In this document: positions 10,711 to 22,106 of the stretch, one piece after another
Layout of the letters: the number at the start of each line of letters is the position of its first letter
How positions within the stretch are numbered: position 1 is the stretch's first letter
Assembly: GCA_027485835.1 (NCBI GenBank)
Contig: JAIXQG010000001.1
Span: 319,902-383,901 of the forward strand
Length of the DNA stretch: 64,000 nucleotides
Source of the DNA: Alphaproteobacteria bacterium
GTDB taxonomy: Bacteria; Pseudomonadota; Alphaproteobacteria; UBA2136; UBA6156
Reading direction: 5' to 3'
Position numbers and translations under genes: made by a program
Notes under the pieces: generated by a model
Seen by the model: only the letters and a program-made list of their open reading frames with translations
Told to the model about the DNA's origin: nothing
Databases searched by the model: none

Positions 10711-11823
10711 CTAACCTTCTAACTGCATCATGTTGCGACTTTGATTCAATGCGCTTTTCATTGCATTCTCACCATAATCTCTTTGCATATCCATCTTAGC
10801 ATTCTTTGAAAGACGTATACACAAATCTCGGTTAGCTGCAAGCTTTTCAATGGCTTCCGACAGCTCGGATCCATCTACATGTTCCAAAAGGTACATGTTT
10901 TCATTATGTTTTCCGTAAACAATAATTTCTCCGACGGGTGAGGCAATACATGGGATACCTGTCTGCATGGCTTCTAGGAGGGTAATGCAAAGCCCTTCGT
11001 ATAAACTCGGCTGTACGTAAAAATCAAAGTTACCAACCCGTTCACTCCACTTTGGGTCGTAGCCGGCGAAGATCACTTGGTCTGATATAGCTAGTTTCTC
11101 CGCCATTGATTTCAACATCTCCTGATCCGGCCCTTCCCCAAACAATGTAACCGATGCCTTGACCCCTTTAGACTTAAGGCTTGCAACAGCCTGTAAAATG
11201 ATCTGCTGGTTTTTTTGGGCGGTTAAACGGCCCGCGCACGCCAGACGCAAGGGCTCTGAAAGCGGCTGCCGAAGCTTGTAAGCATCATTGTTTGTATGTG
11301 CCTTGAACAAAGGCATGACTACGGAGGATATGTCTTTGTTGATAAACCACTGCTGACGGACAGCTTCTTCCGTGCGCTTGCTGTCGCAAAGAATCCCCTT
11401 TACTGGCAACGAGAGCAACTTGAGCAAAGGCCCGTAAAGCTTTTTTGAATATTTAATATTATGCTCGAACGAATAGATTTTGACCCATGGGATTAGGTGG
11501 CCCCAGAATCTTCCAATCAAATTGGTTTGTTCTAATGAGAGGATAGCAACAACCGATTTTGTTTTTAGGAGAAAGTACGGATAATAAATTAAAGCCCCTA
11601 ACAATTGCCAAACACTCATGTTTGGCGACTGGAACATAACCGTGAGCTTATCTTCCGATAGCCTTTGCTTGAGCGCAGCCTCTATTTTTCCGTCTCCGAT
11701 ATTAATAGCGAGAACGTTGAGGTCGGTTCCACGAAACAAACCACTATCTATTAGAGTGAGAAGGCCGTTTTCGGCCCCTCCTCCCGAGAGGCTATTGAGA
11801 AAGTAGGTAACTTTACGTGTCAT
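10711..11823 (-). CDS. Glycosyltransferase family 4 (GT-B)
   Basis: This 370-residue protein has an N-terminal acceptor-domain motif SLSGGGAENGLLTL and a C-terminal nucleotide-sugar domain with LRLACAGRLTAQKN, LFGEGPD and the E-x7-E type signature PSLYEGLCITLLEAMQTG (about residues 272-290). These are hallmarks of retaining GT4 enzymes. It probably transfers a sugar to a lipid-linked precursor at the cytoplasmic face of the inner membrane. It follows the GT2 gene by 6 bp in one operon. Donor and acceptor unknown. Confidence 0.88.
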   Translation of the reverse strand: MTRKVTYFLNSLSGGGAENGLLTLIDSGLFRGTDLNVLAINIGDGKIEAALKQRLSEDKLTVMFQSPNMSVWQLLGALIYYPYFLLKTKSVVAILSLEQTNLIGRFWGHLIPWVKIYSFEHNIKYSKKLYGPLLKLLSLPVKGILCDSKRTEEAVRQQWFINKDISSVVMPLFKAHTNNDAYKLRQPLSEPLRLACAGRLTAQKNQQIILQAVASLKSKGVKASVTLFGEGPDQEMLKSMAEKLAISDQVIFAGYDPKWSERVGNFDFYVQPSLYEGLCITLLEAMQTGIPCIASPVGEIIVYGKHNENMYLLEHVDGSELSEAIEKLAANRDLCIRLSKNAKMDMQRDYGENAMKSALNQSRNMMQLEG

Positions 11824-11829
11824 AGCCGA

Positions 11830-12663
11830 TTAAGACCTAAACAGGCCTTTTAGGCGTTTGAATGCTTTTTTGGTATTGGCCACTACCGGAGTAGGCGTGG
11901 CTACACGGGCAGCGCTACGGGCTATTCCCAGCCATGCCCAGAGATGGAAGGGGCTAAAGTAACGGCATTGAACCTGAAAACGTGCTAGACGTTGCCGGGA
12001 CGTACGCTTGCTTGATATCCCCTTACTAGAAACCCGATAGAGAAGCGTAAATTCGGGTACGTTTGCTACTGGGTAGTACTTTGCCATACGGCAGAGAAGT
12101 TCGTAATCCTGAGCTACAGGGAACCCTTCGTCGTAAATTCCAACCTTTTTCAGAGCTTCCGCACGGAACGTGACTGTCGAATGTACGAAGCTTGCATCCC
12201 AGTACTGCTGTTTACAAATATCTTTATAATCGCAGGGATAGCAGTAATCGTAGAGCGTTTCCAACGTATCTTCATCGACACAGTGTGCCCAACCGCCTAC
12301 GGCGGCCACTTGGGGGTTGTTCTGTAAAAATTCCACCGTTTTGCTGACGCGGCCGGGCAAGGCGATATCGTCGGAGTCCATCACCGCGACGTAATCGTAC
12401 CCCTTAGCGAGAATCTCCCGCAGGGCGATGTTACGGGCTTTTGCGGCACCCACGTTTGCATCCTGACGCAGGACATGCACATAGGACGGCAGCTTTTTAA
12501 ACAGCTTGGTGACCGGGGTACGGCTTGCATCGTCGACAATAAATACATCTACCGGCAAGCCATCGATAAGCAGGCTATCTACCGCCTGCACAAGAGTTGC
12601 ATCGGCATTATGTGCGGCCATAACCGCCGCAATACGCGGGGTAGAAGATGTTTTATTTGCCAT
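11830..12663 (-). CDS. Glycosyltransferase family 2 (GT-A)
   Basis: This 277-residue protein has the GT2 core: AAVMAAHNADATL, the VDVFIVDDAS motif, GAAKARN and the metal-binding DSDD (about residue 98), then a QDYELLCRM catalytic-base region. It adds a sugar from a nucleotide donor during polysaccharide assembly. Its start overlaps the end of the upstream GT4 gene by 11 bp, indicating translational coupling. The C-terminus carries a basic amphipathic tail that could associate with membrane. Confidence 0.88.
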   Translation of the reverse strand: MANKTSSTPRIAAVMAAHNADATLVQAVDSLLIDGLPVDVFIVDDASRTPVTKLFKKLPSYVHVLRQDANVGAAKARNIALREILAKGYDYVAVMDSDDIALPGRVSKTVEFLQNNPQVAAVGGWAHCVDEDTLETLYDYCYPCDYKDICKQQYWDASFVHSTVTFRAEALKKVGIYDEGFPVAQDYELLCRMAKYYPVANVPEFTLLYRVSSKGISSKRTSRQRLARFQVQCRYFSPFHLWAWLGIARSAARVATPTPVVANTKKAFKRLKGLFRS

Positions 12664-17281: not shown

Positions 17282-18439
17282 TTATTTAGCACCCATGCCG
17301 CCGGGGTTGGGAGTGTGGTAGGGCGCAATGGTCTTCTTCTCACACATGTTGTTGGCTTCCGACACACTGGAGACCACAACCATTTGCTTTACCTGCCCGC
17401 TCTTATAGGCGGCGAGGAATTTCTGGTATTCCGGCAATACCGTACAGCCTGCCGAGCCGCCACCGCGTCTTAATGGACGGTGAACAAGGATGCCGTCGCG
17501 CCCATACATTTGGGTAGAGGATGAGGGATTCATCCGCAGGGCTTCTTCTCCGTAAAAGAGGCTTTCCCGCATGGAGAGCGTGTAAACGCCGGGAGGGGTT
17601 GAGCCCTTCCCTTTCATGTTGACATAGGCCGGATTATCCTTATAGGCGCCCGTACCGGAGTGGGCCTCCAGCACGGTACCGTCCGGCATATAAACCTTTT
17701 GGGCGGAAATATCGTACACCGCGACGCCATTACCCGCCTTAGGCTGGCCACCGGCGGTACATTGCAAGGCTGCGTTGACCGCTTGCTTTAAGGCTTCGGT
17801 CATTTGCTCTACGGGGCCTGAGGCACCGTTGTTGGCGACGATGGTATCGAGAGTGCCTTGAACAGCGCTTAATGGGTTTTGGCCACCTGCCAGTTGCGAG
17901 CCAAACTGTTGCAGAATTTGGGTTAGGAGATCGGTAGTGTCGGAGCCTGCACTGGAAGCATCGTTCGAGGTGTCTTCGTCGGTTGAGGTCTCGTCTTCTT
18001 CCGGCCCTGGAATGACCGTTTTAACAATAAGGGTGTTACCGGCGGCATTGGCAAACGTAACTTCAATAATCGTTTCCAGCGTCGCTTCATCGCTGGTCAC
18101 GCTATAGGCCGTGATGATGTAGCCAGCCTTGAGGCGCGCGATGATCTCCTTCAGGGCATCAGCCACGGCTTTTAGCTGGGCGATTTCTGATGCGCTGGAG
18201 CTGTTGGCTATTTGGCTGTTCAAGTTTTCCAGCCTGCTTTGGAGATACGCGAGGTTGTCGGCGGTGGCTTCTGCTTTAGCGGCCTCGGTTGTACCGCCCA
18301 GGGTTAGGCCGCCGAGGGTGGAGTTGGCGCTAGAGGAGGCTTGGAATTCGGCAAAGGAAGCTTGAGCCAGCACCATGAACGCGGCTACTAGCGCAAACTT
18401 GGAGAGGCGTTTGAGAGACAGAATGCTTTGGGCGGTCAT
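17282..18439 (-). CDS. Secreted L,D-transpeptidase-like protein (DUF2778/Tlde1-type fold)
   Basis: This 385-residue protein has a signal peptide (about 1-30, ending ASFA). A long Ala/Ser-rich helical region (about 45-105) and an acidic low-complexity linker (about 146-170) follow. The C-terminal domain has the layout HSGTGAYKDNP (His260), STPPGVY, then LVHRP (His320) and GSAGC (Cys332). The His and S-x-GC pair is that of YkuD-related L,D-transpeptidases, and the spacing most resembles DUF2778/Tlde1 proteins, which cut or exchange D-amino acids on peptidoglycan stem peptides. It could be a cell-wall remodelling enzyme or a toxin-like effector. No immunity gene is recognisable next to it. Confidence 0.68.
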   Translation of the reverse strand: MTAQSILSLKRLSKFALVAAFMVLAQASFAEFQASSSANSTLGGLTLGGTTEAAKAEATADNLAYLQSRLENLNSQIANSSSASEIAQLKAVADALKEIIARLKAGYIITAYSVTSDEATLETIIEVTFANAAGNTLIVKTVIPGPEEDETSTDEDTSNDASSAGSDTTDLLTQILQQFGSQLAGGQNPLSAVQGTLDTIVANNGASGPVEQMTEALKQAVNAALQCTAGGQPKAGNGVAVYDISAQKVYMPDGTVLEAHSGTGAYKDNPAYVNMKGKGSTPPGVYTLSMRESLFYGEEALRMNPSSSTQMYGRDGILVHRPLRRGGGSAGCTVLPEYQKFLAAYKSGQVKQMVVVSSVSEANNMCEKKTIAPYHTPNPGGMGAK

Positions 18440-19297: not shown

Positions 19298-19326
19298 TTG
19301 CATATTGTGTCTTTAAAGGCTACATT
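19298..19326 (+). promoter_or_regulatory. Candidate promoter of the HTH-RuBisCO-like operon
   Basis: TTGCAT (19298-19303) and TACATT (19321-19326) have ideal 17-bp spacing, 49 bp upstream of the ATG at 19375. This is the best sigma70-like match in the intergenic region. Confidence 0.5.
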
Positions 19327-19357
19327 CCATCTACGCAACAATTCATTCCAAATAAGT

Positions 19358-19368
19358 AATACTGTATT
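19358..19368. promoter_or_regulatory. Palindrome just before the start codon, possible autoregulatory operator
   Basis: AATACTGTATT is a perfect 5+1+5 palindrome 6 bp upstream of the start codon, downstream of the candidate promoter and covering where a ribosome-binding site would sit; no clear SD is visible. XRE-family regulators often bind such short AT-rich dyads in their own leader. Binding here is inferred. Confidence 0.4.
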
Positions 19369-19374
19369 CAGACC

Positions 19375-21018
19375 ATGCAAACTGTGAGCACCCCTACCCT
19401 TGGCCAGACTTTGAAAATGCTGCTGCAGGAGCATGATATGTCTGCGGCTGAACTGGCGCGGCGGGCGGATCTTTCCGTAGCGTCGCTTTCACGGATTTTG
19501 AACGACCAGACGAATCCATCCTTCGACAGCGTGAGCCGTTTGGCCAAGGCGCTGGGTATTGGCATGGACGCCTTTACGCCGGAAGCCAGCGCCAATACGG
19601 CCGCGCGGGGAGAGGTACGGCCGAGCGCCTTCCCGATGGAAGCCGTTTATATATTAGAGAACACCGACCACACGGTAGAGAGCGCCCACCAGTTGCTGAC
19701 CCAAGCGGCGCAAGGCAGCTGGGTGAACAGCTGGACCCACCGCATGGTGAGCGACAGTATTGTGCAGCCGGAAGTTTCGAAAGTGGAACAGGTTGGAACC
19801 CGTCGTTTGCAAGTGTCGTTAGAGTTTCCGCATGAGTTACTGGAGCGCGGCAGCTTGGTGAGCTTGCTGAGTGTGGCCGGTAGCGCCCTGACCGGCACAG
19901 GTGCACGCTTGTTTGACCTGCGTGTGCCGGAGCCCCTGCTGCGCACCTTTAATGGGCCCGCCTTTGGTGGACGCGGTTTGCGCGATACCTTTAACAAGCA
20001 TGGCCGCCCCCTTCTCGCTTGTACCATCCGCCCCATGTACGGCCTGAGCCCGAAAATGTATGGCCGTGCGGCGTATGAAGCGCTGATTGGCGGCGTAGAC
20101 ATTACTGCCGACCCGACGCTGATGCATAGCATTCCCTCCAACCCTTGGCGCGAGCGCTTCCGGTTTGTGGCCGAGGCGGCTGCGGCGGCCACCCGCGAGA
20201 CCAATGAGTTTAAGAGCCATGCGGTGAACATTACCGCTGGAACCGTGGAAGACATGCAGGAGCGCGCCCTATGGGCCCGCGACCTTGAGCTGGCGATGGT
20301 GATGGTGGACAGTGCGGCGATTGGTTGGAGTGCGTTGCAGAGCATTACCGCCTTCTGTGCCAAAAACGAGCTGCTGATTTGCGCGATGGGTGGACGTGCG
20401 TTGAATGGCGACATGCTGAGCGAACAGCTCCAAGCCAAGTTACTGCGCTTTGCGGGGGCGGATGTGGTGAGCACGGGTTCTCCCTTGCGTGGGAATATTA
20501 GCAACCGCCGTTACGTGACTGGCGTACTGAACGCCCTGCGCGACGAGCACCTGCCCCAAGCCCCCGACATGGGCCACTATGTAGAGCAACCGCTGGCCGG
20601 CCTGACCGGCGCCCTACCCGCTGTGGGTGGCGGCCATAACCCATGGCACTTTGCGCGCCTGATTGATGCGATTGGGCATGATGCGGTGATTCAATGCGGT
20701 GGGGCGATTATGGGCCACCCGCAGGGTAGCCAAGCTGGGGCATCGGCCTGTCGGACGGCGTTGGAGAGCCTGATTCAGGCCCAGAACGAAGGCCAGAACC
20801 TGAATGTGGAAGGCCGTCATGTATTGCAAAAAGCCGCGCGTTACAGCCCTGAGCTGAAGACCGCGCTGGATACGTTCCAAGAGGGAAGCTTCCTGTTCGG
20901 CGTCGTGCAAAGCGCACCCCGGCCGACCGAGGGTTCGGTAATACCGCACGGCACCAACCCCTCGCCGACCATTACACCTTTCCGGCGGCCGGATGTTGAG
21001 CCGAGTTTAGAAGACTAA
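19375..21018 (+). CDS. XRE helix-turn-helix fused to catalytically dead RuBisCO large-subunit-like protein
   Basis: This 547-residue protein starts with an XRE/HTH_3 domain (about 9-67: MSAAELARRADLSVASLSRIL is the helix-turn-helix core). Residues about 88-505 align along the whole RuBisCO large subunit: GSWVNSWT (N-domain), RVPEPLLRTFNGPAFG, GRPLLACTIRPMYGLSPKMYGRA, HAVNITAGT, ALPAVGGGHNPWHF and IQCGGAIMGHPQG. By eye, catalytic residues are replaced (spinach numbering): E60 to Gln110, T65 to Ser115, N123 to Ser163, K175 to Arg219, K177 to Met221, carbamate K201 to Ala245, D203 to Pro247, E204 to Thr248, H327 to Ser366, S379 to Gly418. H294, H298 and K334 are also absent. The phosphate-binding glycines (G381, G403, G404 equivalents) and W66 remain. 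It cannot be a carboxylase; a ligand-sensing transcription factor is the natural inference. It is followed by a small-subunit gene. Family assignment is strong. Confidence 0.93.
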   Translation: MQTVSTPTLGQTLKMLLQEHDMSAAELARRADLSVASLSRILNDQTNPSFDSVSRLAKALGIGMDAFTPEASANTAARGEVRPSAFPMEAVYILENTDHTVESAHQLLTQAAQGSWVNSWTHRMVSDSIVQPEVSKVEQVGTRRLQVSLEFPHELLERGSLVSLLSVAGSALTGTGARLFDLRVPEPLLRTFNGPAFGGRGLRDTFNKHGRPLLACTIRPMYGLSPKMYGRAAYEALIGGVDITADPTLMHSIPSNPWRERFRFVAEAAAAATRETNEFKSHAVNITAGTVEDMQERALWARDLELAMVMVDSAAIGWSALQSITAFCAKNELLICAMGGRALNGDMLSEQLQAKLLRFAGADVVSTGSPLRGNISNRRYVTGVLNALRDEHLPQAPDMGHYVEQPLAGLTGALPAVGGGHNPWHFARLIDAIGHDAVIQCGGAIMGHPQGSQAGASACRTALESLIQAQNEGQNLNVEGRHVLQKAARYSPELKTALDTFQEGSFLFGVVQSAPRPTEGSVIPHGTNPSPTITPFRRPDVEPSLED

Positions 21019-21383: not shown

Positions 21384-22106
21384 ATGACACTCGCTGAAAT
21401 TGGTCTTTTCAGCGCAGCGTTTTTATTTACCGCGATGTTTTCCGCCATGGCCGGTGCGGGTGGCGGTGTATTGATGACGGCCGTGTTGAGCGGGTTTATA
21501 CCACCTGCCGCGCTTGTACCTGTTCAGAATGCGATTCTTTTCTTCAACAGTGCTGTACGTAGCGGGCTTTATCGTAAGGATATCAATTGGAATATCGCTT
21601 GGCCTTTTGTGATAGGGCTTGCCGTGGGCTCGTTTATTGGGGCCACCGTTTACGTGAATTTGCCAGAAGATGTGATTGGCCTGCTGATGGGCATTGCCAT
21701 GCTGGTATTTACGTGGGGGCCGATTAAAAGCCATTGGATTACCAAGTCCATCCCGTTACGGTTAGGGCTTGGGACGGTTCATGGCTTTTTAAGCAGCCTC
21801 ACCGGGGTTGGTGGTTTGTTACAGGCCACATTTACTAAACTCGGCCTTAAAAAGAATGAGAGGATTGGCACCTTTGCCGTTGTGATTACCTTCAACAACG
21901 TGTGGCGCGGGCTTGCCTTTGCCGTTTTAGGTGTAAGCCTTGTGCCTTATTGGAAGCTGATAGCGCTCGCTATTCCGCTGGCCTTTTTAGGTGGTTGGTT
22001 TGGTAAGAAAGTGGGAGACCAGATACCCGAGCGGATTTTTGATATTCTGTTTAAGGTGATTGTTACGGTTTTTGCTCTCCGGATGCTCTATCAGGCTGTT
22101 TTCTAA
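21384..22106 (+). CDS. TauE/SafE family permease
   Basis: This 240-residue membrane protein has about 8 helices in two halves, each with the family's Gly-rich motif (AMAGAGGGVLMTAVL near 22-36 and SSLTGVGGLLQATFTKLG near 137-154). TauE/SafE proteins are thought to move sulfite, sulfoacetate or other small organic anions across the inner membrane. It begins 3 bp after the small-subunit stop, so it is in the HTH-RuBisCO-like operon and a candidate target or partner. Substrate unknown. Confidence 0.85.
   Translation: MTLAEIGLFSAAFLFTAMFSAMAGAGGGVLMTAVLSGFIPPAALVPVQNAILFFNSAVRSGLYRKDINWNIAWPFVIGLAVGSFIGATVYVNLPEDVIGLLMGIAMLVFTWGPIKSHWITKSIPLRLGLGTVHGFLSSLTGVGGLLQATFTKLGLKKNERIGTFAVVITFNNVWRGLAFAVLGVSLVPYWKLIALAIPLAFLGGWFGKKVGDQIPERIFDILFKVIVTVFALRMLYQAVF

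Follow-up and report, generated by a model that had tools for sequence, protein, structure and literature searches.

A predicted one-component transcription factor derived from Form I RuBisCO in an order of Alphaproteobacteria

Introduction

What becomes of a RuBisCO large subunit once its active site is lost and a DNA-binding domain is placed in front of it? The question is raised by a gene in the window, the 64,000-nucleotide stretch of an alphaproteobacterial contig analysed here, in which an XRE-type helix-turn-helix (HTH) domain and a RuBisCO large-subunit-like chain share one reading frame. A preliminary description, made from the letters alone, had viewed the product as a RuBisCO-derived transcription factor sensing a sugar phosphate, 3-PG or a CO2-linked metabolite. 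A conserved lineage with both subunits, the catalytic residues gone and an HTH added would show a central metabolic enzyme turning into a regulator, and the small subunit would gain a role independent of carboxylation.

Results

A single frame encodes an HTH domain and a RuBisCO-like chain

The open frame, Pfam and phmmer bear out the uninterrupted joining of an HTH_3 domain to a full-length RuBisCO large-subunit chain (Table 1). HTH_3 scored 47.2 bits against a cut-off of 23, and RuBisCO_large matched residues 202-501 (E=1.4e-58); the match to RuBisCO_large_N (residues 100-186, E=7e-4) was weak and fell slightly below the family cut-off. The best relatives among PDB chains were Form I large subunits, aligned by phmmer over residues 102-512 with E values down to about 2e-87, and the top one was a reconstructed ancestor of RuBisCO bearing a small subunit (E=2.1e-87). 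The AlphaFold model (pLDDT 83.5) reached TM scores (target) of 0.84-0.90 to Form I RuBisCO in Foldseek. It places an HTH-type bundle of short helices (residues 9-19, 24-31, 35-42 and 50-60) at residues 9-67, followed by a linker with pLDDT below 50 at residues 71-82, and leaves the tail disordered at residues 507-547. Searched alone against the PDB, the HTH region had no match at E 0.001.

Table 1. Features of the fusion locus, in window coordinates
Feature	Position	Strand	Evidence and remarks
Predicted operator site 1, ATTCCATCTACGCAAC, palindromic	19324..19339	.	13.6 bits; EM motif and leave-clade-out; conserved in genus members
Predicted operator site 2, ATTCCAAATAAGTAAT, in tandem with site 1	19345..19360	.	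7.9 bits (weaker)
HTH-RuBisCO fusion gene	19375..21018	+	547 aa; single open frame with no break
XRE/HTH_3 DNA-binding domain, aa 13-66	19411..19572	+	Pfam HTH_3, E=2.3e-12
Linker, aa 68-87	19576..19635	+	Low model confidence; unconstrained
Form I RuBisCO large-subunit-like chain, catalytically dead, aa 88-505	19636..20889	+	Pfam, phmmer, AlphaFold/Foldseek, residue comparison
C-terminal tail, aa 506-547	20890..21015	+	Predicted disordered, pLDDT about 37-40; conserved within genus
RuBisCO small-subunit-like gene, 112 aa	21042..21380	+	Pfam RuBisCO_small, E=5.5e-21

The fusion is conserved across the order and under purifying selection

Protein searches recovered the fusion from 17 of the 18 genomes of the order, the window's own included, and from three further genomes belonging to other families in the same class. 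Outside the window genome this makes 19 homologous genes; those within the order encode proteins 40-88% identical to the window's. Both HTH_3 (at E<=0.001) and RuBisCO_large were matched in all 20 members, no fusion match contained an internal stop, and every alignment begins at query residue 1-9, so all homologues carry the HTH. The order's one genome without the fusion (G001) is 54% complete and holds a lone small-subunit gene (L197, contig 104); given this incompleteness, its fusion may lie on a missing contig. Among 398 genomes sampled from the phylum, only the window's own carried the fusion; the remaining matches were ordinary Form I RuBisCOs, aligned from residue 96 or later.

We compared the window with its nearest relative (L034) to estimate dN and dS, the ratios being approximate because dS is close to saturation. 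Overall values were 0.09 and 1.03, with 0.13 and 0.77 for the HTH, 0.07 and 1.07 for the RuBisCO chain and 0.14 and 0.85 for the small subunit. The linker reached 0.75 and 1.24, a dN/dS of about 0.6 versus 0.07-0.17 in the domains. Thus, the HTH and the pseudoenzyme are both maintained by purifying selection, while the linker drifts. The C-terminal tail (20890-21015; dS 1.24) is disordered in the model yet has the lowest dN of all parts (0.028); its PTEGSV..NPSPTITPFRRP pattern suggests a short linear motif.

The RuBisCO chain groups with Form I

The fusion proteins form one clade (support 100/100), whose stem is long at 2.3 changes per site. A branch with 99/99 support places this clade on the Form I rather than the Form II side of a tree from which Form III and Form I-prime were absent, so the phylogeny that the preliminary description had called for favours Form I within that sampling. 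The clade sits weakly beside one Form I group, nearer green-type sequences (83/74), and an AU test did not separate an origin inside proteobacterial Form I from one beside it (p=0.42). Form IV RuBisCO-like proteins are non-carboxylating and have no small subunit; the Form IV family that we scored, MtnW, is an enolase. Its scores for the fusion were far below cut-off (117 bits versus 409, and 89 versus 513.6). We rejected a Form IV identity, given the chain's place with Form I in the tree and its retained small subunit. In a marine survey, rbcS was encountered only alongside form I (PMC12168267).

The active site is lost and the pocket remodelled

Comparison of the 20 family members with 16 Form I sequences extended the replacement of catalytic residues, described earlier for the window, to the whole family. 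E60 became Q, S or N and N123 became A, P or S; the two active-site lysines are R in 20/20 (K175) and M, L, S, V or I (K177). At the carbamylation and metal site K201 is replaced by A, C or V, D203 by P or A and E204 by T or A. The substitutions continue with H294 (M, L or T), H327 (S in 20/20), K334 (G or E) and S379 (G in 20/20). None of K175, K177, K201, D203, E204, H294, H327, K334 and S379 is kept in any of the 20 members. The absence of K201, D203 and E204 from every homologue leaves no carbamate-Mg centre and excludes carboxylation by the known mechanism. It also excludes direct CO2 sensing through a carbamylated K201, and the classical version of the CO2-linked sensing suggested previously is thereby ruled out.

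Other parts of the pocket persist. R295, G380, G381 and D202 are kept in 20/20 members, T173 in 19, W66 in 18 and G403 in 16. The phosphate-site glycines, all said at first to remain, are therefore retained at three of four positions (G380, G381 and mostly G403), the fourth (G404) having given way to A, S or N. New invariant residues at positions conserved in Form I include R219, S366, G418, H421 and N422, and pocket columns have a majority frequency of 0.82 versus a domain mean of 0.67. By analogy with the known active site of RuBisCO, what survives of the phosphate site suggests that the ligand is phosphorylated; because the phosphate pocket is partly intact, it may be a sugar phosphate or 3-PG.

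A palindromic motif precedes every fusion gene

Inspection of the upstream regions revealed palindromes near the start codon (e.g., TTTCCATATATGGAAT, TTTTCATATATGAAAG and CTTGCATTTATGCAAG). A palindromic EM model resolved them as TT[GC]CATATATG[CG]AA (TTsCATATATGsAA) in 20/20 fusion upstream regions, with a log-likelihood of 135 versus 25-33 in 12 dinucleotide shuffles. In leave-clade-out cross-validation we used 165 comparison upstreams from other genes, of which only 0-4.2% beat any given locus (empirical p<=0.042), although the test is not fully independent because the scored site set was the full model's choice. Scores of at least 13 bits were reached by 85% of the fusion-gene upstreams versus 0.6% of the 165 others. 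The two sites in the window lie 21 bp apart, start to start, which corresponds to two helical turns. Both genus relatives (G008 and G009) have the same pair at the same spacing, and tandem operators occur in many fusion loci. At one locus (L022) the operator overlaps the first ATG, making a start 27 bases further downstream likely. A sigma-70 promoter search called none at threshold. XRE regulators usually control their own expression through a palindrome upstream of the gene (PMC12565409), and the conserved palindrome, a computed motif, is what an autoregulating XRE repressor would predict. The palindrome also makes the regulator claim directly testable.

A pattern search for further targets returned more operator-like sites than its reversed control in several genomes. 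In 50 stretches taken from around operator-like places in the order genomes, however, the majority of sites lay within coding sequences, and the genus consensus had only four exact matches in the window's own genome, two of them the fusion gene's own operator. A possible site at murB-ftsQ in G000 and G008 proved not to be conserved on alignment and was rejected as a second target. So was a putative methyltransferase gene, whose operator-like site is upstream in one genome and intragenic in the other, at differing positions (969-1024 of L189 in G009; 2984 of L187 in G000). As neither the genus-level nor the order-genome hits, mostly intragenic, yielded a convincing second target gene, we claim only self-regulation.

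The small subunit is retained in genomes that lack phosphoribulokinase

The small-subunit gene begins 23 bp after the fusion gene. Its product matched a PDB chain (E=1.9e-17) and its AlphaFold model matched RbcS in Foldseek; the large-chain and small-subunit predictions each resemble their Form I counterparts. RuBisCO_small identified rbcS in 16 of the 18 order genomes; G016 and G017 are without it and keep the operator and the fusion. Across the 20 fusion loci, rbcS is directly after the fusion or one gene away in 18. Unrelated genes, one per locus, intervene in L020 (deaminase-like, 11561-12055) and L035 (membrane-protein-like, 2174-2710). In G017, which has no rbcS, a ATACGCAT-type repeat cluster and a perfect TTTCATATATGAAA palindrome lie downstream of the fusion (L032, 12164-12305).

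Phosphoribulokinase (PRK) exceeded its cut-off in 0/18 order genomes, while a control gave a PRK-family match in 11 of 14 genomes. The window's own genome, 1.53 Mb in size and 93% complete, contains neither a PRK match nor a second RuBisCO. This is a small-genome order without the Calvin cycle, and the lack of PRK makes RuBP an unlikely signal. Comparison of the 20 loci revealed no conserved neighbours beyond rbcS, and no conserved metabolic gene, except for proS, whose position near the fusion in 10 of the 20 suggests vertical inheritance. Immediately 3' of the window's small-subunit gene is a TauE/SafE-type membrane permease gene (21384-22106, + strand) that is absent beside the fusion in relatives. 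On the other side, 17282-18439 (- strand) encodes a protein in which Pfam identifies Tlde1 (E=2.8e-21), a domain that takes its name from a type VI secretion peptidoglycan effector.

Discussion

Order-wide conservation, the dead catalytic site, an HTH held under purifying selection and a conserved palindromic operator upstream of every copy strongly support the RuBisCO-derived transcription factor first proposed for this locus. We give a probability of roughly three in four to a one-component pseudoenzyme regulator that represses its own operon and is probably tuned by a phosphorylated metabolite. It would descend from a Form I RuBisCO and use two HTH domains to bind TTsCATATATGsAA before its own rbcL-like/rbcS-like operon, probably repressing it. 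The RuBisCO chain, still accompanied by its small subunit, would no longer carboxylate and would serve as an oligomerisation and effector-binding module; a phosphorylated metabolite probably occupies its remodelled phosphate pocket and thereby alters DNA binding. The fusion, the loss of catalytic residues, the retained small subunit, the purifying selection, the conserved predicted operator and the lack of PRK are all read from the sequences; from them we infer that the protein binds DNA, that it represses rather than activates, that it assembles as L2 or in an L8S8-like form, and what kind of ligand it has. Points against this reading are the lack of a second target gene, and so of a regulon with a physiological output, among the operator-like hits, the weakness of the window's second site (7.9 bits) and the loss of rbcS in G016 and G017. 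A bolder extension, which we hold tentatively and at slightly under even odds, is that an L8S8-like RuBisCO particle has been turned, order-wide, into a multivalent DNA-binding sensor of the central sugar- or acid-phosphate pool. It would be the first RuBisCO known as a transcription factor, with RbcS kept for a non-photosynthetic purpose.

The conserved pocket could also mean that the RuBisCO chain is a trigger enzyme, catalysing another reaction in a metal-independent or differently metalled manner while the HTH adds only autoregulation. Form IV proteins did evolve new chemistry, and the replaced pocket is conserved above the domain average (0.82 versus 0.67); it includes polar residues that are newly invariant (R219, S366, H421, N422, R378 and R379) and retains R295 and three of the four phosphate glycines. 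Yet an effector site predicts a conserved pocket equally well. Neither the Mg-binding triad nor any substitute acidic pair is conserved, the loop-6 lysine and both active-site lysines are gone, and the compared loci share no metabolic neighbour gene, leaving this reading improbable. Somewhat less probable still is a factor that needs no ligand, either an L8S8-like particle bridging or wrapping DNA with up to eight HTH domains or a sensor of the balance between large and small subunits that matches their synthesis. Most genomes keep the small subunit, tandem operators occur in many loci (within the genus, always at a spacing of exactly 21 bp), and there is a precedent in Chlamydomonas chloroplasts, where assembly state feeds back on Rubisco synthesis at the level of translation (PMC12449265). 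However, sites outside its own promoter are few for a nucleoid-type role, an assembly sensor fits poorly with the persistence of operator and fusion in G016 and G017 without rbcS, and a ligand-free protein would have no need of a conserved pocket.

Two further origins have a negligible likelihood. An assembly or sequencing error joining neighbouring genes, the artefact against which the preliminary description had cautioned, is refuted by the two-domain homologues in 20/20 members. We found no support for it or for a decaying RuBisCO pseudogene, as the same fusion recurs in 20 independent genomes with zero stops and purifying selection on both domains. Capture of a RuBisCO chain by a phage-type repressor or by a gene of a mobile element draws on the similarity of the HTH to phage-repressor families, but HTH_3 is ubiquitous in cellular regulators. 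The fusion was not found in the phage records, viral contigs or plasmids searched; it is present order-wide, and 10 of the 20 loci compared have proS close by.

The pseudoenzyme regulator that we favour can be set against several known systems. Form IV proteins such as MtnW are likewise non-carboxylating homologues of RuBisCO, and the fusion shares with them the loss of the carbamylated lysine and metal ligands; unlike them, it has rbcS and an HTH and groups with Form I. Form I RuBisCO (RbcL8S8) is close in sequence, predicted fold, adjoining small-subunit gene and position in the tree, whereas the fusion has an added HTH, no catalytic residues and neither PRK nor a Calvin cycle around it. One-component XRE/HTH_3 regulators with other sensor domains share the HTH_3 and a palindrome upstream of their own gene (PMC12565409), but the operator of the fusion is matched by computation only; the word RuBisCO is absent from the text of that survey. 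Our search of the open-licence literature returned no paper on an HTH-RuBisCO fusion or on a RuBisCO with a DNA-binding domain. An HTH with a dead enzyme as effector domain is a known kind of regulator; the literature searched yielded no example in which the enzyme is RuBisCO and its small subunit is present as well. The nearest parallel is BzdR, in which an XRE HTH is fused to an inactivated shikimate-kinase-like domain (PMC3602430). That domain is absent from the fusion, whose C-terminal part is RuBisCO by Pfam. Both proteins have an N-terminal HTH, a linker and an enzyme-derived C-terminal effector domain without catalysis, making this a plausible route from enzyme to regulator. In contrast to BzdR, the enzyme here is a RuBisCO that retains a separate small subunit and is found order-wide, with no conserved neighbouring pathway genes.
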